This document shows, piece by piece, positions 7,003 through 63,943 of a stretch of 64,000 bases of DNA (position 1 is the first letter of the stretch; each line of letters opens with the position of its first letter). This stretch comes from an uncultured Methanomicrobiales archaeon (GTDB taxonomy: Archaea; Halobacteriota; Methanomicrobia; Methanomicrobiales; Methanospirillaceae), in contig CASGHK010000023.1 of assembly GCA_949320185.1 (NCBI GenBank), positions 1 through 64,000 of the forward strand, given 5' to 3'. A program made the position numbers and the translations under genes. Under the pieces are notes generated by a model. It was not told the origin of the DNA and did no database searches. It was given only the letters and a program-made list of their open reading frames with translations.

Positions 7003-8251
7003 ATCGGCCGACGTGGTGGTGGTCGGTGGCGGGCCGGCGGGGCTCTTCTGCGCGGCCCAGCTCCCGGCAGGCCTCGACGTGCTCGTCCTCGAGCGGATGC
7101 CGGGGCCCGGAGCGAAGCTCCTCCTCTCCGGCTCTGGCCAAGCGAACCTGACCCACGAGGGGACGGTGGGAGCGTTCCTCGAGCACTACGGTGCGAAGGA
7201 CCACGGTCGGTTCCTCCGGCACGCCTTCGCCGCTCTCCCGAACGATGCGCTCTGCCGCTGGTTCACCGACCACGGAGTCCCGATCGAGGTCCGCGAGGAC
7301 GGCAAGGTCTTCCCGGTCTCGAGGCGGTCGCAGGATGTGCTCGATGCGGTGCTGGACGCCTGTTCGGCACACCGAGTCCGTGTCCGGACCGGGGTCCGGG
7401 TCCAATCGGTGGAGCGAGCCAAAGACGGGCTCCTCGTCGGGACGGGGGCGGGAGCGGTCGAGGGCCTGTCGGTCGTCATCGCGACGGGCGGCGCTTCATA
7501 CCCGCAGACGGGCTCATCGGGAGACGGCTTCCGGCTGGCCGCGGAACTCGGCCACACGGTGGTCGAGCCCCGCCCTGCTCTCACCCCGATCGAGCCTGAT
7601 CCCTATCCATTCGCCGACCTCGCGGGGGTGACGGTGCCGGGCGCGAGCCTCACGCTGGAGCGGGAAGAAAGACGCGTCGCCTTCGAACAGGGGGACCTCC
7701 TCTTCACACACCGGGGTCTCTCCGGGCCGGTCGTTCTCCACCTCTCCCGGTCGGTGCTCCCGCATGACCGTCTCCGGGTCTCGTTCCTGAATCCCCTCCG
7801 GGCAGACGAGGTCGACGCCCGGGTCGTCGCTCTCTGCGCCGAGCACGGTGCGGCCCGGCTCCCTGCGGTCCTCAGTCCTCTCGGGCTCCCCGATCGGCTC
7901 GTCCGCCGGTTGCTCGAGCTCGCTGCTCTCCCCCCGGACCTCATCGGGGCGCGGGTCACCCGCGAAGCGCGCCGGGCGCTGGTGGCGGCTCTCACAGCCC
8001 TACCTCTCGAGGTCTCGCGCGTCGGGGGGTTCGGGGTCGCGATGGCGACCGCCGGCGGGGTCGCCCTTGGGGAGGTCGACCCGCGCACGATGGGCTCACG
8101 CCTGGTTCCCGGGCTGTTTTTCGCTGGCGAGGTCCTGGATATCGACGGGGACAGCGGTGGATACAACCTCCAGGCCGCATTCTCGACCGGAGCGCTCGCC
8201 GCCGCCGGCGTCGCTCGGTACCTGGGGTCGGTGCCGTCGGGGCGGAGTTGA
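6992..8251 (+). CDS. NAD(P)/FAD-dependent oxidoreductase, HI0933/BaiN-like flavoprotein
   Basis: VVVVGGGPAGLFCAAQL dinucleotide fold; GGASYPQTGSSGDGF; C-terminal GLFFAGEVLDIDGDSGGYNLQAAFSTG. GTG start at 6992 preferred over the ORF-track start 6920. Confidence 0.85.
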   Translation: MTGESADVVVVGGGPAGLFCAAQLPAGLDVLVLERMPGPGAKLLLSGSGQANLTHEGTVGAFLEHYGAKDHGRFLRHAFAALPNDALCRWFTDHGVPIEVREDGKVFPVSRRSQDVLDAVLDACSAHRVRVRTGVRVQSVERAKDGLLVGTGAGAVEGLSVVIATGGASYPQTGSSGDGFRLAAELGHTVVEPRPALTPIEPDPYPFADLAGVTVPGASLTLEREERRVAFEQGDLLFTHRGLSGPVVLHLSRSVLPHDRLRVSFLNPLRADEVDARVVALCAEHGAARLPAVLSPLGLPDRLVRRLLELAALPPDLIGARVTREARRALVAALTALPLEVSRVGGFGVAMATAGGVALGEVDPRTMGSRLVPGLFFAGEVLDIDGDSGGYNLQAAFSTGALAAAGVARYLGSVPSGRS

Positions 8252-8295
8252 GGAGGCGGACCCTATATGCCCCCGGGCGTAGAACAGGATCTCCA

Positions 8296-8862
8296 ATGAG
8301 CTCCGCGCCACCTCCCCGCACGATCGACGATATCGCTGCCGAGTACGCGGCCTTCTGCCAGGAGGTCGCCGACCGATGCACCCGTGACATGCTGGAGATC
8401 GAACGGCTGATCTCCATCCTGGAAGAGAGGAAGCCGGTCCACTGCTACGGATTCGGCAGGAGCGGCAACGTCGCATCGGCGCTGGCTATCCGCCTCCGGC
8501 ATTTCCAGCGCGTTCTCGGGGACGTCTGGTTCTGCGGCGACCTGGTGCGCAACACATTCAACAACACGGACCTCCTCATCGTCGTCTCGAAGAACTGTTC
8601 CCGTTCCGACCTCCTCTATCACGTCGAGAGAGCCCGAAAAGGGGGGATGACATGCGCCTTCGTGACGGGTGAACCGCCCCTCCCGGAGTGCATCCAGGAT
8701 GGCGATCTGGTCTTCTCGCTCCCGTCGAAGAAGAGCAGCCCCATCTATGGCGGGGGCGATTTCGAGCTCGCGGCCTTCTTCTTCCAGGAGGTGCTCGTCT
8801 CGCGGATCGGAGCGCGCTTCAACATTGACCCAGACGATGTCGACGAGTACCATGTCCCCTGA
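8296..8862 (+). CDS. SIS-domain protein (6-phospho-3-hexuloisomerase-like)
   Basis: YGFGRSGNVASALAIRLRHF SIS motif; internal ATG at 8296 is the likelier start. Confidence 0.75.
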   Translation: MSSAPPPRTIDDIAAEYAAFCQEVADRCTRDMLEIERLISILEERKPVHCYGFGRSGNVASALAIRLRHFQRVLGDVWFCGDLVRNTFNNTDLLIVVSKNCSRSDLLYHVERARKGGMTCAFVTGEPPLPECIQDGDLVFSLPSKKSSPIYGGGDFELAAFFFQEVLVSRIGARFNIDPDDVDEYHVP

Positions 8863-8996
8863 GCCGGCACCGATCGCGCACGTGACATGATCGGGCTTCC
8901 ACCACCGGGGGTCCGCCGCCCTTCTTTTATCGACAGCGTCCATGCCGCCCCGATTCATCAGGTGTTTGCGGCGTTGTTCCACGCCGAACCTTTCCC

Positions 8997-10433
8997 TTAC
9001 GAGAACCCGACGTCGAGGGTCCGCTGGCTCTCGGCGTCCAGCCCGGTGAAAATCACGACCTTTCCCTGCTGGCGATACCGCTCCCTGACCCGAGCGATCG
9101 CCGCCACCGCCGATTGGTCCCAGACATGCGACCGCCCGAGGTCGATCCGCACCTCCGAGGGGTCGTCGTCGTAGTCGAAGAGGTCGACGAAGGCGGCCAT
9201 CGTCCCGAAGAAGAGCTGGCCCGAGACCGTGTAGACCTTCACCCCGTCCTCGCGCATCGCGGAGATCGCCGAGATCCGGGACATCTTCCAGCCGAAGACC
9301 AGTGCGGCCATCACCACGCCAGCAATCACGCCCTTCGCGAGGTTATGAGTGAAGACTACGATTGCCACCGTCCCGAGCATGATCACCGCGTCACTTCGCG
9401 GGATCTTCATGATGTCCCGGAGCGACTGCCAGTCGAAGGTGCCGACCGCGACCATGATCATCACGCCCACGAGTGCCGCCATCGGGATCTGCGCCACGAT
9501 ATCGCCGAAGACGATGATCAGGATGATAAGGAAGACCCCCGCCACCAGGGACGAAAGGCGGCCCGACCCTCCGGACTTCACATCGATAACCGACTGCCCG
9601 ATCATGGCGCAGCCGGCCATCCCGCCGAAGAGGCCGGCGACGCAGTTCGCGAGCCCCTGGCCCCGTACTTCGCGGTCCCTGTCGCTCCGGGTAACGGTCA
9701 TCTCGTCCACGATCGAGGCGGTCAGGAGCGACTCGAGCAGCCCGACGACCGTGAGAGTGGCCGCATACGGCAGGATGACCAGCAGCGTTTCGAGGGTGAG
9801 CGGCACCGCCGGCAGGACGAAGGCCGGCAGGGACCGCGAGATCGTTCCGAGGTCGCCTACGGTCTGGACGTCCAGTCTCAGGCCGATGGCGATCAGCGTC
9901 ACCACCACGATCGCCGCGAGCGATGAGGGGACCGCCTTCGTATACCGGGGTAGGACGTGGACGATCGCGATCGTCAGGGCAACGAGGGCGTAGACGACCC
10001 ACGGGACGTTGACGATGAACAGGACCTGGGCGAGGAAGATCAGGATCGCGAGCGCGTTCACGAACCCGAGCACCAAGGAATAGGGGACGTAGATGATGAA
10101 CCGGCCGACCTTCAGGACGCCCAGTCCGACCTGGATCACGCCCATCAGGAGGGTGGCCGCTAAAAGGTACTGCAGGCCGAAGTCGCGGACCAGGACCACC
10201 ATCACGAGGGCCATCGACCCGGTTGCGGCCGAGATCATGCCCGGGCGTCCGCCGACGAACGCGATGACGACCGCGATTCAGAAGGAGGCGTAGAGCCCGA
10301 CCATCGGGTCGACCCCCGCGATCAACGAAAAGGCGATCGCCTCGGGGATCAGCGCGAGGGCTACGGTCATCCCGGCGAGGACGTCGCCGCGGACGTTCGA
10401 GAACCACTCCCGATGCAGAGCGTTGAGACTCAT
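8997..10433 (-). pseudogene. SulP-family anion transporter with C-terminal STAS domain, interrupted by an in-frame TGA at codon 52
   Basis: Frame from ATG at 10433 reads [77 protein letters not shown]...; TGA at 10280-10278; rest of 479-codon frame intact. Confidence 0.8.
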
Positions 10434-55302: not shown

Positions 55303-56808
55303 TTACTTTCCACACGCGATCCTCTTAGCCATGATGCATTTCCCGCCGCGCCGGCCCCCAAGCGGGAACTTCGGCTTGCCGATCGAGAGCATACAGCGCC
55401 CCATCAGGGCGGCACCGCGCGCGAGCCCGTCGTCGACGAACACGACATGGTCGAGCGCGCCGTCGGGGAAGAGCTTCATCGCTTCGATCTCTTCAAGGAT
55501 GTACTCAGGCTTTCTTCCCGAGATCGCAGCACGGCCCGTGAACCCGATCGAGGCGTTCGGCGGGACCATGTCGCGCTCCGCCGCGATCCCGATCATCCGG
55601 GTGGCCATCCTGGTACAGACCCGGTCCACCACCTCGGTGAGCGTCGCGATCCCGTGGGCCTCGTGACATTCCTTTCCGATCGCCTCCAGCTCGGGGACGG
55701 CGGAGCCGTTCACCCCGGCATCGCAGCCTATCAGGGCGATCCCGGAGGCCTCCGCCACGTCGGCGCAGAGCGGCACGCGCCCGAACCGGGGGCGGTCGGA
55801 CGGGACGATCCGGATGTCGATCTGCTCGTGGCAGCGTTCGACATATTCGTCGACGACCCGACGGTTGGTCCGCGTCATGATCGAGCCGAGCGTCGAGCGG
55901 TCGGAGAAGAGGTCGAGCGCTGTCCCGGTCTTCTTCTGGACGAGGCCGGTCCCCCGAACGATCGCGTCGGGGATCGCGCCCGCGAGCCCGGCGAAGTTAC
56001 CGATCGTCCTGGCGAAAGGGTCGCATCCGGTGTCATCGATGTCGGAGGTGATCCGGCCGTCGAGCGTGGTACCGAAGTCGATAGAGACGCAGGGGTTTCG
56101 GAAGTCGACCGGCGTCCACTTTGCCCCCTCCTTGATCCCGGCCATGGCGAGCTCCCCCTCCATCTCGTTCGCGACCATCTCGACTCCCGAGGACCCCCGC
56201 GGCGGGAGCACGCCGGCGACCGCCCCGATGAAGACGACCTTGTCCGCGAAGGAGTGGGGCTGGAGTTTCGGCGGCAGGTTCGCCTTGGACATCGGCGGGG
56301 TCATCTTTCTGGGGGGTACCCCGGCCTCGAGGCACCCGTTCGCGAGCGCGATGACGAAGTCCCCGACCTGGTCCGGGGAGTCCATCGCGGCGACCACTCC
56401 GGTCGAACGGACGACGAAGTCGAGGTCGTCCTGGATCGAGAGGCCCGCCTCACGGTGGCACTGGACCAGGGTATCCCGGACCAGCTCGGTAACGGACTCG
56501 CGGGTCAGCTCGGTGCCGTCGAGAGTCTGGCCGAAGATCTCTTCGCCGGGCTTCGGGGGGCGGACGTCCCGGCTCATCGAGACCGTTTTGTTGATCACGT
56601 AGCTATGGCCGGTCTCGAGGTTCGTCCCGGTCAGGATGCACTTCGTTGTCGTATTGCCCATCTCCACCGATGCCACGATGAAGTACGGCTTGGTCCGATA
56701 TTCGGGGACCTCCATCCCCGCACCGAGACGGATGGTCGGTGGAGGAACACTCTCGACGATATGGGGCTTGGGGCGGAAAAAACGGTCAAAAAAGCGGGCG
56801 TACATCAC
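55303..56808 (-). CDS. mmp14: Methanogenesis marker protein 14 (ASKHA-fold)
   Basis: VASVEMGNTTTKCILTGTNLETG; CVSIDFGTTLDGRIT; GFTGRAAISGRKPEYILEE; length and motifs match recalled MMP14. Confidence 0.85.
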   Translation of the reverse strand: MMYARFFDRFFRPKPHIVESVPPPTIRLGAGMEVPEYRTKPYFIVASVEMGNTTTKCILTGTNLETGHSYVINKTVSMSRDVRPPKPGEEIFGQTLDGTELTRESVTELVRDTLVQCHREAGLSIQDDLDFVVRSTGVVAAMDSPDQVGDFVIALANGCLEAGVPPRKMTPPMSKANLPPKLQPHSFADKVVFIGAVAGVLPPRGSSGVEMVANEMEGELAMAGIKEGAKWTPVDFRNPCVSIDFGTTLDGRITSDIDDTGCDPFARTIGNFAGLAGAIPDAIVRGTGLVQKKTGTALDLFSDRSTLGSIMTRTNRRVVDEYVERCHEQIDIRIVPSDRPRFGRVPLCADVAEASGIALIGCDAGVNGSAVPELEAIGKECHEAHGIATLTEVVDRVCTRMATRMIGIAAERDMVPPNASIGFTGRAAISGRKPEYILEEIEAMKLFPDGALDHVVFVDDGLARGAALMGRCMLSIGKPKFPLGGRRGGKCIMAKRIACGK

Positions 56809-57024
56809 CTTCCGTTGCCTCTGTGCTCCAATATACCTTTCGTTTTCGGCCAGGTTGCCGTTCGTTCGGCCTCGTGGTCAGATCGGGGGATTCTCTTCCG
56901 GGATTTCTATTATTGTCCGATTCCTCACCTGCCCGTCGTTCACGAATTTCGAATCATTGAAATAAGTGAAGATGTAACTAGGTACGTCGTTATCCTGCCA
57001 CAGGACGCGGGAGACGGGGTGTGC

Positions 57025-57252
57025 ATGAGGGAGCGGATTCGGCGGATCAACCTTCAGCGGCAGATGCTGACCATGATCACTTCGCGGCCCGGGTGCACCC
57101 TCCAGGAACTCTTCGAGGCCTACCGCGAGAACTACCGGGCATGGGAGATCCGCTACCACCTCCAGTGGCTCGTCCGCCACGGGGTGGTCGCGCTGCGGGC
57201 GGGCCCCCGGGCGATCCACTGTTATCCGACCGGGAAACGGCTCTCGGTCTAG
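57025..57252 (+). CDS. Small winged-helix-like DNA-binding protein
   Basis: MRERIRRINLQRQMLTMITSRPGCTLQELFEAYRENYRAWEIRYHLQWLVRHGVVALRAGPRAIHCYPTGKRLSV. Confidence 0.6.
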   Translation: MRERIRRINLQRQMLTMITSRPGCTLQELFEAYRENYRAWEIRYHLQWLVRHGVVALRAGPRAIHCYPTGKRLSV

Positions 57253-58115
57253 GTAAACCCTTTCGTCACGACCATGGCGGTGAAGAGGAGGCCGCCGAGC
57301 ATGGTGTTGAGCGCCGGGAGGCGCCAGTAGACCGTTTCTACCGGGAGTCCTGGCCTGGCGAGGAGGACCGCAGGCACCGCCGGGTATGCCAGCACGGCAA
57401 GGCTCAGGGGGTGCAGGCCGCTCGCGGTGAGCGTGATCGCGGCAAGACCACTCCAGAGGATGAGGCAGAGAATGAGCGACCGCTTCCTGCCCAGGAGGAC
57501 AGCCGTCGTCATGATACCGGCCGATCGGTCACAGGCGATGTCGGGCACGGCCGAGAAGAGGTGCATTGCGGCGATATGCAGAAACCCGCCGACGAGGAGC
57601 CATCCCGGGGGCACCTTCCCCGATGCCAGGACGAACCCGTAGACCCCCGGGAGCACGTAGAGGTAGTTCGAGCAGAAGTCCAGGAACGGGACCTGCTTGA
57701 ACCGGAGTGGCGGCGCTGAGTAGAACCCGGCGAGGAAGAGAAACCCCACGAGGACCGCGAGGAGCCTGGGATCGGGCGCGGCGGCGCCGAGGAGGAGCGT
57801 GGCGAGGAGCGAGAGGGCGACGAGGAGAATGACCCGGTTGCGGTCCGCCCCGGAGAAGCGGTACTCCCGCTCGTCCTTCTTCGGATTCGCCTGGTCGGTC
57901 GCCTCGTCGAAGAGGTCGTTGACGCCGTAGATGAAGAGATTGGCGGGGAAGAAAAAGTAGACCAGGGCGGCGGCGTACGCCGGGACCAGGAAGTCGTGCC
58001 AGTTCGCCATCCCGATCGCGTAGCCCACCACGTAGGTCCCGGCCGTGTAGATCCAGAACCGGGGGCGGGAGAGACGGATCGCGAACCCGGCCAGTCCCCC
58101 GGGCCCGCCCGTCAT
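57249..58115 (-). CDS. UbiA-family prenyltransferase, lycopene elongase (LyeJ/CrtEb)-like
   Basis: FPANLFIYGVNDLFDEATDQANPKKDEREYRF; SAPPLRFKQVPFLDF; next to crtB/crtI/cruF-like genes. Confidence 0.8.
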   Translation of the reverse strand: MTGGPGGLAGFAIRLSRPRFWIYTAGTYVVGYAIGMANWHDFLVPAYAAALVYFFFPANLFIYGVNDLFDEATDQANPKKDEREYRFSGADRNRVILLVALSLLATLLLGAAAPDPRLLAVLVGFLFLAGFYSAPPLRFKQVPFLDFCSNYLYVLPGVYGFVLASGKVPPGWLLVGGFLHIAAMHLFSAVPDIACDRSAGIMTTAVLLGRKRSLILCLILWSGLAAITLTASGLHPLSLAVLAYPAVPAVLLARPGLPVETVYWRLPALNTMLGGLLFTAMVVTKGFT

Positions 58116-58948
58116 GCGGTGGGCCGGATGCTGTTCGCAGCGAACCGGAAGACGAGCCGCGGCACGGACGGGCGGACCTTTTTGTCGAAGACGACGAACG
58201 GGTCGTGTTCGATCCGCCTGGCGGTCCAGGCGTACATGTCCGACGCGGTGATGATGGGTAGGCGCATCCTCCACGGGATAAACCGGTACCCTGCTTCGCC
58301 CTGAGCCTGCCAACCCCGGTAGTGATTGCATTGAGCGTGGATGAACTCCCTGAACGCCATCGGATGCCGCCGGAGGTATTCCGGCTCGAGGGAGTCCAGG
58401 CCGAACCGCTCAAGTTCCTCCTCGGGCAGGTAGAGCCGGCCCATTGCGCTGTCCTCGGCGATGTCCCGGATGAAGTTGATGTACTGCATCCCCCGACCGA
58501 GGTGGCGGGCGGCCAGATAACTCTCGGGGGGCAGTTCGAGGAGGCGGGCCATCATCAACCCGATAACCTCCGCCGAACCGTAGAGGTAGACGTGCAGGTC
58601 CTCGAGGGTCCGGTAGCGGTGGACGGAGAGGTCGAGCGCCATCGAGTGGAGGAACGCGTCCACCCACGCCTGGTCGATCCCGAACCGTTGCTGGAGGGCG
58701 ACGAACCCGTCGATCACCGGGTCCTGTGCGGACAGGCCGTCGATGGCCTCGCGGTAGGTATCGACGAAACTGAAGAAATCCTCCCCCCTCTGCGGCACCG
58801 AGTCCACCAGGTCGTCGGCCGTCCGCACGAACGAGTAGAGCGTGAAGACCCGCGCCTTCACCTCTGGTGGAAAGAAGAGCGTCGAGTAGAAGTAGGTCTT
58901 GGACCCGCGCTTGAAGAGGTCATAGATCGTCCGGTCGATCACGGTCAT
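58112..58948 (-). CDS. crtB: Phytoene synthase
   Basis: SKTYFYSTLFFPPEVKARVFTLYSFVRTADDLVDS; GRGMQYINFIRDIAEDSAMGRLYLP. Confidence 0.93.
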   Translation of the reverse strand: MTVIDRTIYDLFKRGSKTYFYSTLFFPPEVKARVFTLYSFVRTADDLVDSVPQRGEDFFSFVDTYREAIDGLSAQDPVIDGFVALQQRFGIDQAWVDAFLHSMALDLSVHRYRTLEDLHVYLYGSAEVIGLMMARLLELPPESYLAARHLGRGMQYINFIRDIAEDSAMGRLYLPEEELERFGLDSLEPEYLRRHPMAFREFIHAQCNHYRGWQAQGEAGYRFIPWRMRLPIITASDMYAWTARRIEHDPFVVFDKKVRPSVPRLVFRFAANSIRPTA

Positions 58949-60429
58949 CGCGGGGCTTCCTGCTCCTCGCCGACCACTCTCGCGACGATCTGGGACGAGA
59001 TCAGAGTCATGGGAACGCCGATGCCGGGGTGGGTGTACTGCCCCGAGTAGTAGAGGTTCTCGACCTTCTTGCTCCGGTGTGCCGGTCTCCAGAGCGCCGT
59101 CTGGAAGAGGGTATGCGAGAGGCCGAGCGCCGTTCCACGATAGGCGTTGTACCGCTTTGCGAAGTCCTCGAGGGCGAAGCACCGCTCGGTGACGATCGCG
59201 TCGCGGATCGGCTCCCCGATGGTGTCCTCGAGGTGGGAGAGGATCCGGTCGCGGAGCGCCTGGCGCCGCTCGGGTGTATCCGGCAGTCCGGGCGCGAGCG
59301 GAACAAGGATGAAGAGCGTCTCCCCACCCGGCGGTGCGGCGGTGGTGTCGGTCTTGGAGGGAACGTTGACGTAGTACGACGGGTTCTCGGGCCAGGCGAC
59401 CTTCTCCGGGTCGAAGAGGGTCTCGAACCCCTTCTCCCAGTCCCGGTCGAGCAGGAGGGTGTGGTGGCAGAGCCCCTCCACCTTCCGGTCGAGCCCGATA
59501 TAGAGGACCATGGCAGAGGGGGCGAGGATGCGCTTCGACCAGTACTCGGCGTCGTAAGTCCGTGATGCCCCGTCGAGGAGGTCGAGCTCGGTGTGTGCGT
59601 AGTCTGCGTTGACGATCACGACATCGGCCGGATACCGGCCCTCCGACGTTTCGACGGCGACCGCCCGGTCGTTCACGACCACGATCCGAGTCGCCGGTTC
59701 GTTGAAACGGAAGACCGCGCCGTGCTCTTCGGCCAGCCCGCGTACCGCGTCGACGACAGCCCGGATCCCGCCCTCGGGGTAGAAGACCCCCAGCGTCAGG
59801 TCGATGTGGGACATGATGTGGTAGAGGGCCGGCGTGTTCGAGGGAGCCCCGCCGAGGAACCCGATGGAGTACTGGACGATCTTCTTCGCCTCGTCGCTCG
59901 TGAAGTACCGGCCGACGAAGTGATCGAGGTGTTCGAAGGTATGGAGGAGCTTCGGGCCTTCAAAGAGGAGGCGGCCCGAGACGAAGTCGAGGACCGAGCG
60001 GTACTCCCGGTAGAGCAGGTCGTTCATGGTGATAGTGTAGAGCGCCTTCGCCGAGTCGAGGTACCGTCGGAGCTTCTCGCCGCCCCGTTCCTCGAACGTG
60101 TCGAAGAGAGCGATGGACTTCTCCGTCTCGGCGGGGATATCGACCACCCTGCCGTCCCCGAAGAAGATCCGGTAGGAGGGGTCGAGGCGCCTGAGCTCGA
60201 AGAAGTCGGCGGGCGTCCTGCCGAACTCGGCGAAGAATCGTTCGAAGACGTCGGGCATCAGGTACCACGACGGGCCCATGTCGAAGGTGAACCCCTTATC
60301 GCGGTGCACCGACGCTCGCCCCCCTGCCTGCTCGTTCTTCTCCAGCACCGTCACGTCGTTCCCGTCCCGGGCAAGCAGGGCTGCTGCGGCAAGTCCGCCG
60401 AAGCCCGCGCCGATGATCACCGTCTTCAT
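58945..60429 (-). CDS. crtI: Phytoene desaturase
   Basis: MKTVIIGAGFGGLAAAALLARDGNDVTVLEKNEQAGGRASVHRDKGFTFDMGPSWYLMPDVFERFF; C-terminal NLYYSGQYTHPGIGVPM. Confidence 0.93.
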   Translation of the reverse strand: MKTVIIGAGFGGLAAAALLARDGNDVTVLEKNEQAGGRASVHRDKGFTFDMGPSWYLMPDVFERFFAEFGRTPADFFELRRLDPSYRIFFGDGRVVDIPAETEKSIALFDTFEERGGEKLRRYLDSAKALYTITMNDLLYREYRSVLDFVSGRLLFEGPKLLHTFEHLDHFVGRYFTSDEAKKIVQYSIGFLGGAPSNTPALYHIMSHIDLTLGVFYPEGGIRAVVDAVRGLAEEHGAVFRFNEPATRIVVVNDRAVAVETSEGRYPADVVIVNADYAHTELDLLDGASRTYDAEYWSKRILAPSAMVLYIGLDRKVEGLCHHTLLLDRDWEKGFETLFDPEKVAWPENPSYYVNVPSKTDTTAAPPGGETLFILVPLAPGLPDTPERRQALRDRILSHLEDTIGEPIRDAIVTERCFALEDFAKRYNAYRGTALGLSHTLFQTALWRPAHRSKKVENLYYSGQYTHPGIGVPMTLISSQIVARVVGEEQEAPR

Positions 60430-60528
60430 GAGAGGATCCCCACCCCGATACCGCGCGGCATGCCCTCCGGCGTCGCAGGTGAACAGCATCTCTATTCGCC
60501 GACCCACGAAAAAACCTGTCGATGGTGC

Positions 60529-61287
60529 TTACCCGGGAGATTGACGGAACCAGAGCCCCTTACGGAGGAGCACCGCTCCTGAGAAGGCGGCGATGCCCGC
60601 CCCGATGAGAATCGGGACGAGCATCCCCGCGCCAAGAGCGACGCCGGTCCAGAAGCAGGTGATCAGGAGGAGGCTCCAGGCGGTCTCCAGAGGCAGGGGA
60701 TGGCGAACGGTTATGAAGACCAGCGCCGAGTAGAGCGTGCCGGTGAGAAACCAGCCCAGATAGTTCGAGAGGGGGATCCCGTAGTATGCACCCTGCTCGC
60801 TCCAGACCCAGTACCCGAGGAGGGCCGCCCCGGGGTCGAGAACCAGGTCGACGGCGACGAGGAGAAGCGCACTCGCCGCCACCCTCGTTGCGAGAGAGTG
60901 GTACGGGAGGAGTCGTCCGGCGAGGGCCGTGGTCCCCAGGAGGAGCGGGACGTAGGCGAAGCCGACCGTCCAGGGTACGGGACCGATCGCCGCCGACCCG
61001 ATCGCCTCCGCATAGTGAAACCAGCCGTACGGCACCCCCGTCACCACGCCGATCGCCTCGACGCTCATTGAGAGCAGGGAGAGGCCGATGGCGAGGGCGA
61101 TGCCCCTCTGCACCCCCTCCGATCGGGACAGGTGATAGAAGGACGGGAGGGCGAGAGCGACGATGAGGGCCCCGGAGATCACCGGGTCGAACGGCGTCCT
61201 GGGAGCATAGCGGACCAGGGTGCCCAGGATAACGAGGAGAAGAAGGAGGAGAAGGTGCGGGACGGTGGAGAGGAGCTGTCTCGCCAT
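60529..61287 (-). CDS. CruF-like carotenoid hydratase family (DUF422)
   Basis: Polytopic; MSVEAIGVVTGVPYGWFHYAEAIGSAAIGPVPWTVGFAYVPLLLG; DLVLDPGAALLGYWVWSEQGAYYGIPLSNYLGWFLTG. Confidence 0.8.
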   Translation of the reverse strand: MARQLLSTVPHLLLLLLLVILGTLVRYAPRTPFDPVISGALIVALALPSFYHLSRSEGVQRGIALAIGLSLLSMSVEAIGVVTGVPYGWFHYAEAIGSAAIGPVPWTVGFAYVPLLLGTTALAGRLLPYHSLATRVAASALLLVAVDLVLDPGAALLGYWVWSEQGAYYGIPLSNYLGWFLTGTLYSALVFITVRHPLPLETAWSLLLITCFWTGVALGAGMLVPILIGAGIAAFSGAVLLRKGLWFRQSPG

Positions 61288-61293
61288 GCGCCC

Positions 61294-63009
61294 CTACCGG
61301 TGCGTCAGGTACGCGACCACGCCGTCCGGGCCGACGCTGTCGACCCGGACAAAGCCGACGCGCTCGAACTGGATGACGCGGTCGACCTTCTCGGCGACGG
61401 CAGGTTCGCACACCCCGTGAACGTCACCCTCCGGCCGGCAAAGAGTGCATGGGAGGGTGGCCCCGAGGGGGAGCCACTGCACGATCGGGGCGTGGGCCGC
61501 CCGCGCCTCGGCGAGGTCATCGCCGGCATAGGTGAAGCGTGTGCGGTCCTGGTCCGTTCCCATCCTGACGTTGAAGAGGTCCTTTAGTCGGAGCATCGAG
61601 ACATCCTGGTCGAGCTCGTCTTTCGGGACGAGCACCACCCGGTCGAACCCGAGTTCCCGCGTGCCCCGAGCTGGGTCCCCCGGGTGCCGGAGGGGGCGGG
61701 AGACCTGGGGCATGGCTCCCGTCACCTCGACGGTGACGGGCTCTGGGACGAACCAGAGCCGGTCCGCCTCCGGGTCCACCAGCTGCCGGTTCTCAGCGAA
61801 CAGGTTCTCCCACGAGTACTGGATGTCGGTCTCCCCGCAGCCGATCGCGAGCATCGACCGCTTCACGGCTTCAGGCCGGATCCCTCGCCTCGCCAGAGCC
61901 CGGAGGGTGCCGAGCCGGATATCGTCCCAGCCGCCGTATCGCCCTTCGGCGATCCCGGCGCGCATCTCCGAGGTCGAGAGGACGACACCCTCGATCCCCA
62001 TCCGTCCGTAGTGCCGGAAGTGCGGTGGAGTCCAGCCGAACCAGTCGTAGATGAACTGCTGGCGCCGTGTGTTGGCGATGTGGTCCTTGCCTCGGATCAC
62101 GTGGGTGCACCCGAGCAGGTGGTCGTCGATCGCGACCGAGAAGTTCATCAGCGGGTAGACGGTCGCGTCCACGCGCGGGTGAAGCGTCGAGGTGAGGACC
62201 CGGAACGCCGGAAAGTCGCGGAGCGCCGGGTCGGGATGCTCGAGGTCGGTGCGGACGCGCAGCGACGCCTCTCCCTCGGCATACTCCCCCGCGAGCATCG
62301 CCTCGAACCGCGCCAGGCTCTCCTCTGTCTCCTGGGAGCGGCAGGGGCAGGCCCGCTTTGCCTGCCGGAGCTCGCGGAACCGTTCGTTCTCGCAGGTACA
62401 GAGGTAGGCCCCGCCGCGCTCGATCAGCCGGCGAGCATAGTCGTAGTAGGTCTCGAGCCGGTCCGACTGGAAGACGGTCTCGGTGATCGCGCACTCGAGC
62501 CAGGCGATGTCCTCGGGGACCGTCTCGTAGGCGGCGGGGTCGACCCTCTTCGGGTCCGTGTCCTCGATCCGGAGGATATATCGGCCGCCGTACCGCCGGA
62601 CGTAGGCGTCGTTCAGGGCGGCAGCGCGGGCGTGCCCGAGGTGGAGCGGGCCCGAAGGGTTCGGGGCGAACCGCATCACGACCCCGTTCTCGGCGTCGGG
62701 GAGCGGGGGGAGCGCGTACCGGTCGCGCACCCGCTCCTCCCGGACCGCGAGGAGCTCTGGGGCGAGAGACGCGAGGCGGGCCTCCCGCTCCTCGTGCGAG
62801 AGGGCGTCGACCTCGGCGATCACCCCGTCGATCAGGGCCTTTGCCTCCTGTGCCCGGGAGCGAAGCTCGGGATACCGGCCCATCACGGCACCGATGATCG
62901 CCCCTCCACGGGGGGTGCTCCGGTGCTTCACCGCGTTCTCAAGCGCGTGGACGAGAAGTCGCTCGGCGAGGTCGTCCACCTTATGCGCCCCGCGAGACGA
63001 AGTACTCAC
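61294..63009 (-). CDS. gltX: Archaeal glutamyl-tRNA synthetase
   Basis: VVMRFAPNPSGPLHLGHARAAALNDAYVRRYGGRYILRIEDTDPKRVDP; STSEM; start uncertain (ATG 63009 or GTG 62979). Confidence 0.93.
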   Translation of the reverse strand: MSTSSRGAHKVDDLAERLLVHALENAVKHRSTPRGGAIIGAVMGRYPELRSRAQEAKALIDGVIAEVDALSHEEREARLASLAPELLAVREERVRDRYALPPLPDAENGVVMRFAPNPSGPLHLGHARAAALNDAYVRRYGGRYILRIEDTDPKRVDPAAYETVPEDIAWLECAITETVFQSDRLETYYDYARRLIERGGAYLCTCENERFRELRQAKRACPCRSQETEESLARFEAMLAGEYAEGEASLRVRTDLEHPDPALRDFPAFRVLTSTLHPRVDATVYPLMNFSVAIDDHLLGCTHVIRGKDHIANTRRQQFIYDWFGWTPPHFRHYGRMGIEGVVLSTSEMRAGIAEGRYGGWDDIRLGTLRALARRGIRPEAVKRSMLAIGCGETDIQYSWENLFAENRQLVDPEADRLWFVPEPVTVEVTGAMPQVSRPLRHPGDPARGTRELGFDRVVLVPKDELDQDVSMLRLKDLFNVRMGTDQDRTRFTYAGDDLAEARAAHAPIVQWLPLGATLPCTLCRPEGDVHGVCEPAVAEKVDRVIQFERVGFVRVDSVGPDGVVAYLTHR

Positions 63010-63943
63010 CGAGGGCGATGAGGAGACGACGCTCCTCGGTGTCCGGGAGGGTTCGAAGGAGAGAAGAGGCGTCCCGCACGATCCGGCGGGCCTTCTCCTG
63101 GACCTCCTCGATCACCCCGTGGTCGGAGAGGAGGCCGATCAGGTCCTCGCACTCGGCCTCGGTCAGCGGGCGACGATAGGGGGCGAGGTCGATGCCCTTC
63201 TCGCGAGCCGTGATCGTGATCAGGGTCGACTTGCCCTCGCGTATGTCGGAGCCGCGGTCCTTGCCGCTCGTCCCCGGGGGAGCGAGCAGGTCGATCAGGT
63301 CGTCCTGGATCTGGAACGCGACGCCACAGGCGAGGCCGAACCGGTGGAGGACCTCGACCTGGGGATCGCTCGCCCCGGCGAGGACCGCCCCGATCGCGGC
63401 GGACGCCGCGTAGAGGGCGCCCGTCTTCTTCTCGACCATCTCCAGGTACTCGCCCTCCGTCACGTCGTCACGGTCGGAGAACGACATGTCCAGGTGCTGG
63501 CCCAGGCAGAGCTCGTCGCAGGTGATCGCGAGCATACCCACCGCCCGGAGCCGTGCGGTCTCGGGGGTGATCGCCCCGACGAGGAACGAGAATGCCCGCG
63601 AGTAGAGCACATCGCCGGCCAGGATCGCGGTCGGCTCGTTCCAGCGGTGGTTCACGGTCGGCACACCGCGCCGAAACGAGTCCCGGTCCATGATGTCGTC
63701 GTGGATCAGGGTGAACGTGTGGGTCAGTTCGAGCGCCAGCGCGGCCGGCATCAGGTCTTGGGACGAGTTCGGGCGCACCGCGTCGGCGGCGAGCATCATC
63801 AGCGCGGGGCGGAGGCGCTTGCCCCCGGCGGTCAGCAGGTGAGCAGCCGCCCGGTTCAGGTCCCCCACGGGGGCACCGAAGTACCGGTCGATCAGGCGGT
63901 CGACATGTTCGGCCGCGTCTTCGAGATAGGCATCCAGTTCCAT
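62981..63943 (-). CDS. idsA: Polyprenyl (geranylgeranyl/farnesyl) diphosphate synthase
   Basis: LIHDDIMDRDSFRRGVPTVNHRW first Asp-rich motif; QIQDDLIDLL second motif. Confidence 0.93.
   Translation of the reverse strand: MELDAYLEDAAEHVDRLIDRYFGAPVGDLNRAAAHLLTAGGKRLRPALMMLAADAVRPNSSQDLMPAALALELTHTFTLIHDDIMDRDSFRRGVPTVNHRWNEPTAILAGDVLYSRAFSFLVGAITPETARLRAVGMLAITCDELCLGQHLDMSFSDRDDVTEGEYLEMVEKKTGALYAASAAIGAVLAGASDPQVEVLHRFGLACGVAFQIQDDLIDLLAPPGTSGKDRGSDIREGKSTLITITAREKGIDLAPYRRPLTEAECEDLIGLLSDHGVIEEVQEKARRIVRDASSLLRTLPDTEERRLLIALGEYFVSRGA

Follow-up and report, generated by a model that had tools for sequence, protein, structure and literature searches.

Does a strictly anaerobic methanogen encode a route to 50-carbon (C50) carotenoids, regarded as hallmark pigments of haloarchaea and certain actinobacteria? 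The question is raised by a 64,000-nucleotide (nt) stretch of DNA, here called the window, from an uncultured Methanomicrobiales archaeon (assembly GCA_949320185.1, contig CASGHK010000023.1, positions 1 to 64,000 of the forward strand). A preliminary description had read six minus-strand genes near its end, idsA-gltX-cruF-crtI-crtB-lyeJ, as a complete-looking C50 carotenoid operon. All six genes are present where they had been placed, and each has a strong match to its proposed family, with the Pfam matches far above chance (Table 1). Four of them, cruF-crtI-crtB-lyeJ, form a cassette that probably encodes an oxygen-independent, bacterioruberin-type C50 carotenoid pathway and has been acquired or lost as one block next to idsA-gltX.

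The assignment of the pathway is carried by CrtI and LyeJ. CrtI scored 664 bits on NCBIfam model NF058655 (CrtID, bifunctional phytoene/3,4-desaturase; cut-off 640), and LyeJ scored 321.9 bits on NF009516 (cut-off 205). A haloarchaeal LyeJ control scored 469.6 bits on NF009516, and a haloarchaeal crtI-lyeJ-cruF control locus passed the same models as the window genes. In an alignment of 35 methanogen and haloarchaeal LyeJ proteins, YG(V/I)NDxxDxxxD, NxKK, and DxxxD were kept throughout; the window LyeJ retains NDxxDxxxD, DxxxD, and NPKK. The loss of active-site residues that had been named as a possible objection was thus not observed. Nor does the protein group with digeranylgeranylglyceryl phosphate (DGGGP) synthase, the other objection foreseen: the DGGGP-synthase-like paralogue in the same genome (L113) has NRPDRP instead of NPKK and falls far outside LyeJ in a tree in which two outgroup branches are very long. 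Taken together, the two scores over curated cut-offs and the LyeJ motifs support the lycopene elongase/hydratase pathway that had been proposed. The crtI, crtB, and lyeJ genes are under purifying selection, with ratios of nonsynonymous to synonymous substitution (dN/dS) of 0.10-0.25 (0.10-0.14 for crtI), inside or close to the range seen for housekeeping genes on the flanks.

Two side observations concern lyeJ and its family. In Methanogenium marinum DSM 15558 (L046:10358-11178), lyeJ runs over two frames and looks frameshifted, while crtI, crtB, and cruF beside it look intact; G144 (L101) has an apparent copy of this locus, with an identical CrtI and the same split. Some Methanosarcinales and Methanomassiliicoccales have another gene of the UbiA family close to the cassette (L069:12841-13776, with homologues in L052, L059, and L067).

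The chemistry predicted from these families would proceed in a Methanoregulaceae-type methanogen as follows. IdsA, encoded next door, would supply geranylgeranyl pyrophosphate (GGPP), and CrtB would join two GGPP into phytoene. The single CrtID-type CrtI would convert phytoene to lycopene and later introduce the 3,4 double bonds. LyeJ would attach a C5 unit with a tertiary hydroxyl at both ends to yield bisanhydrobacterioruberin, and the CruF-like protein may convert this to bacterioruberin by adding two more waters. The hydroxyls introduced by haloarchaeal LyeJ and CruF derive from water, and for this reason the route would need no oxygen. No lycopene cyclase family was matched in a profile search, so an acyclic product is expected. 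Retinal or rhodopsin use was rejected on the same negative result; the rhodopsin search was uninformative, as its controls were unmatched too.

The preliminary description had seen no separate CrtD and had guessed that CrtI might do both desaturations. In Haloarcula japonica, bacterioruberin is restored in a double mutant by either C0507 (formerly named CrtD) or D1086; each enzyme therefore carries out both phytoene and 3,4-desaturation, and other single-CrtI producers of bacterioruberin probably rely on one bifunctional enzyme (PMC11946383). These genetics and the NF058655 match favor the guess: a CrtID-type CrtI would explain the absent crtD, and no separate CrtD would be needed. That the methanogen CrtI is bifunctional is suggested by its family membership, at approximately 46-50% identity to the haloarchaeal enzymes. 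It was the sole CrtI-family gene over cut-off in a profile search of its own genome. A second CrtI/CrtD was considered and rejected, since the only other substantial match was distant (65 bits) and under every cut-off. This match is a CrtI/carotenoid-isomerase-like flavoprotein on contig 43 of the same genome (L040:7732-9219), possibly a hydroxyarchaeol-type enzyme.

Several points weigh against the proposed pathway. The pigment product is predicted here from the genes. The genome is 84% complete, and a crtD elsewhere may have been missed. Six desaturations in a strict anaerobe would require an electron acceptor. The CrtB score is under all NCBIfam CrtB equivalog cut-offs (109 vs 500 for the best CrtB model), and the protein is only approximately 30% identical to haloarchaeal CrtB. 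CruF is the least certain step: the protein passes Pfam PF04240 (145.1 bits; cut-off 25) and is under the equivalogs TIGR03460 (122.9 vs 154.7) and NF041333 (94.1 vs 300), its gene evolves faster than the other three (dN/dS approximately 0.44), and cruF is not found next to several related cassettes.

Because CruF is below cut-off, faster-evolving, and missing beside several cassettes, the end product may be bisanhydrobacterioruberin. The pathway could stop early in either of two ways: CrtI could make lycopene only, so that LyeJ yields a saturated-end C50 carotenoid of the tetrahydrobisanhydrobacterioruberin type, or CruF could be inactive. The CruF score, the weaker constraint on cruF, its absence beside other cassettes, and the distance of CrtI from the haloarchaeal enzymes all favor such a stop, as does the Haloarcula c0507 mutant, which accumulates exactly the tetrahydro and dihydro C50 forms under weak 3,4-desaturation (PMC11946383). 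However, CrtI passes the curated bifunctional equivalog and has no rival over cut-off, and CruF retains E77, D147, and D151, residues shared with haloarchaeal CruF. We consider an early stop possible but doubtful, and a pathway leading to a bacterioruberin-type carotenoid remains our preferred reading. The CruF of Methanosalsum passes TIGR03460 (158.8 bits).

Other copies of cruF were also observed. G004, of the same genus, has the gene twice: a full copy beside idsA-gltX (L027:12338-13063) and a partial, 81%-similar copy before crtI on another contig (L037:7973-8380). In G027, a weak PF04240 match (L038) stands without any other carotenoid gene.

CrtB is the only SQS_PSY-family member in its genome (198.1 bits; cut-off 26), and both of its aspartate motifs (D45/D49 and D162/D166) are conserved with haloarchaea. 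Its best NCBIfam matches, although below cut-off, are HpnD and HpnC, and CrtM structures are among its nearest relatives in the PDB, as would be expected if CrtB were a squalene/dehydrosqualene-type synthase and the products were C30 rather than C40/C50 carotenoids. Against this, the best PDB relative of CrtB is named phytoene synthase, and LyeJ acts on C40 ends. The Phe position of the aligned C30-type CrtM chains is Thr in the window CrtB; in CrtM mutants, small residues there permit C40 products. IdsA scores under every NCBIfam equivalog and is nearest to GGPP synthases, its best PDB relative (5jfq) being named geranylgeranyl pyrophosphate synthetase. A C30 product is therefore very unlikely in our judgment.

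The same genes could also be imagined to modify isoprenoid lipids, for example in hydroxyarchaeol synthesis, rather than to make a pigment. In the cited account, Methanosarcina acetivorans uses a homologue of phytoene desaturase to synthesize hydroxyarchaeol (Mori 2015, cited in PMC9128505 and PMC10821996), so CrtI-like flavoproteins of methanogens can act on ether lipids. Our M. acetivorans control had a PF04240 match and no SQS_PSY match; PF04240 is thus not limited to carotenoids, because it occurs there without a phytoene synthase. However, M. acetivorans is below the CrtID cut-off, and the window genome has a separate distant CrtI homologue, the contig 43 flavoprotein. Moreover, crtB and lyeJ would be superfluous in an archaeol-modifying route, yet they remain linked to crtI across orders. 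We give the lipid explanation hardly any weight and retain the carotenoid pathway.

Which genes belong to the unit was decided by comparison with relatives. In all 15 relatives examined around gltX (L177-L191), idsA and gltX are adjacent; in 13 of these, which belong to other genera, the site lacks all four carotenoid genes. In G002 (L188), of the same genus as the window, the blastn match to the window breaks off at 57243 and picks up again at 61298, only 34 nt lying in between in G002. G005 (L189), also of this genus, has the same break points with approximately 670 nt of other sequence between them. In both, gltX is followed directly by a small convergent open reading frame (ORF; 86-91% identity) and methanogenesis marker 14. 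No CrtID or PF04240 match was found genome-wide in G002 or G005, both of which are incomplete genomes. The two group together inside the genus in a gltX tree, which fits a single loss of the cassette without proving it.

Since idsA-gltX is ancestral and two sites of the same genus are empty, the carotenoid unit is cruF-crtI-crtB-lyeJ. The inclusion of idsA and gltX in the unit was therefore not borne out, and the embedding of gltX, which had been thought odd, reflects a bystander belonging to an ancestral pair. The genes upstream in this genome encode a mevalonate-kinase-like GHMP kinase, an amino-acid-kinase-family protein that is isopentenyl phosphate kinase (IPK)-like by position, a flavin mononucleotide (FMN) enzyme, and RNase J, which place gltX in an old isoprenoid neighborhood. 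Their order is that of the methanogen mvk-ipk-FMN enzyme-RNase J-idsA-gltX neighborhood, which is not a carotenoid system and serves only as the landing site. The shared strand and short spacing in the window would suit a genuine six-gene isoprenoid operon with gltX functionally integrated, but idsA and gltX are also adjacent in genera that lack the cassette, and sites within the genus are empty, which makes this highly improbable. As an evolutionary unit the six genes are contradicted; co-transcription of gltX is possible.

A protein scan of genome contigs found 42 loci, 29 of them archaeal at approximately 58-88% identity, in Methanomicrobiales, Methanosarcinales, Methanobacteriales, Methanomassiliicoccales, Methanofastidiosales, Methanomethylicota, and one Borrarchaeum. 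The order crtI-crtB-lyeJ was present in approximately 30 distinct archaeal loci, and most of those from Methanomicrobiales had cruF. The CrtID cut-off was passed by 34 of 232 Methanomicrobiales genomes, patchily by genus; among the 108 genomes of the family, the cassette is confined to this one genus. Methanosalsum natronophilum AME2, of a cultured species, carries it with intact reading frames for crtI, crtB, lyeJ, and cruF (L057). In the CrtI tree, methanogen-type archaea formed one clade (99/100) apart from haloarchaea (100/100), and the root between the archaeal clades and bacteria was weak. Two independently binned, near-identical Methanomethylicota contigs stood next to a Methanomicrobiales sequence, a placement that points to transfer, with the caution due to short contigs of metagenome-assembled genomes (MAGs). 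Gain or loss as a block, with kin scattered over methanogen orders, suggests horizontal spread, the direction of which we infer. Only tentatively do we propose that in many strictly anaerobic methanogens this horizontally moving four-gene cassette is used to make C50 carotenoids of the bacterioruberin type, with CrtI re-oxidized by a methanogen-specific electron carrier and not by oxygen or quinone.

Additional observations were made on individual loci. Candidatus Borrarchaeum yapensis, an Asgard MAG (L055), has crtI-crtB-lyeJ inside the methanogen CrtI clade. Candidatus Dojkabacteria, a candidate phyla radiation (CPR) MAG (L062, approximately 7348-9473), has adjacent cruF-like and crtI-like genes with 29% and 45% identity to those of the window. 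Of 33 loci, 9 have a gene for an ABC1/UbiB-type atypical kinase close to the cassette (L035:1426-3231, L025, L028, L033, L034, L045, L046, L051, and L054); PF03109 (ABC1/UbiB) had no match in the window's own genome. In G003, crtI looks broken, perhaps through an assembly error: an in-frame TAG is present near a contig end (L029:192-593), and the C-terminal part of crtI is in two frames on contig 52.

Compared with known systems, the cassette has the same enzyme families as c0507-c0506-c0505 (crtI/D-lyeJ-cruF) of Haloarcula japonica, in which one CrtI/D can do both desaturations and the LyeJ catalytic motifs are identical to those of the methanogen (PMC11946383). The arrangements differ: the methanogen order is crtI-crtB-lyeJ(-cruF), with crtB inside, whereas crtI, lyeJ, and cruF adjoin one another in the haloarchaeal loci, and any crtB found nearby is on the opposite strand. 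Methanogen and haloarchaeal LyeJ are 40-44% identical, and, as noted, CrtI and CrtB also diverge and the CrtI clades are separate. The function of the CrtID family, whose cut-off the window CrtI passes, has been shown in haloarchaea only. The bacterioruberin genes of Arthrobacter follow the same CrtB-CrtI-Lye-CrtD-CruF logic but include a separately annotated CrtD, which the methanogen cassette lacks (PMC9122864).

Table 1. Features of the cassette locus and its flanks (window positions).
Feature	Position	Strand	Evidence and assignment
idsA	62981-63943	-	PF00348 polyprenyl_synt, 6e-67; short-chain prenyl (GGPP) synthase; ancestral neighbor
gltX	61294-63009	-	TIGR00463 and NF003169 over cut-off; archaeal glutamyl-tRNA synthetase; ancestral neighbor
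cruF-like	60529-61287	-	PF04240 Caroten_synth, 3.5e-42; membrane protein, C50 carotenoid hydratase family
crtI, CrtID type	58945-60429	-	NF058655 over cut-off; phytoene desaturase, predicted also 3,4-desaturation
crtB	58112-58948	-	PF00494 SQS_PSY, 2.8e-58; phytoene synthase family
lyeJ	57249-58115	-	UbiA, 2e-23, and NF009516; UbiA-family lycopene elongase/1,2-hydratase
Cassette cruF-crtI-crtB-lyeJ, presence/absence extent	57244-61297		blastn against G002 and G005
Small conserved ORF, 75 aa	57025-57252	+	Convergent with lyeJ; right-hand flank of cassette
Methanogenesis marker 14	55303-56808	-	TIGR03285, 605.8 bits; flank

The overlaps of 4 nt reported for crtI/crtB (58945-58948) and crtB/lyeJ (58112-58115) are exact. 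The statement that the genes mostly overlap holds for these crt genes and fails for the gltX-cruF and cruF-crtI junctions, which are gaps of 6 nt and 99 nt; idsA and gltX overlap by 29 nt, provided that gltX starts at the GTG at 63009. A longer frame around the small convergent ORF (56908-57252) had no family match in Pfam or NCBIfam, and a scan for bacterial-type promoters and terminators gave nothing above shuffles. Methanogenesis marker 14 and an MptN-like gene adjoin the locus, so the host, of the order Methanomicrobiales, is a methanogen.

By analogy with haloarchaea, the pigment might plausibly reinforce the membrane or protect against light or oxygen. Photolyase was tried as a marker of light exposure and rejected: order-wide, it was present in 17 of 38 genomes with the cassette vs 64 of 194 without (Fisher p = 0.19). 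In G004, a DNA photolyase gene immediately precedes the crt genes (L037:5532-6890), and a transposase-like ORF is present in the same region.

The pathway itself is not new, and its key enzyme is one that automatic annotation can already name. In a 2022 review, the carotenoids of methanogens are given as unknown (PMC9410494). Our literature search, which missed most subscription journals, found no paper reporting carotenoid pigments of methanogens and no description of the breadth of the cassette in methanogens, its gene order, or its behavior as a block. The idea is directly testable because at least one cultured species, M. natronophilum, carries the cassette intact. If true, a conserved, selectively maintained cassette over many orders would open an oxygen-independent way to C50 carotenoids, and methanogens that are pigmented, and perhaps exposed to light or oxygen, would be common.

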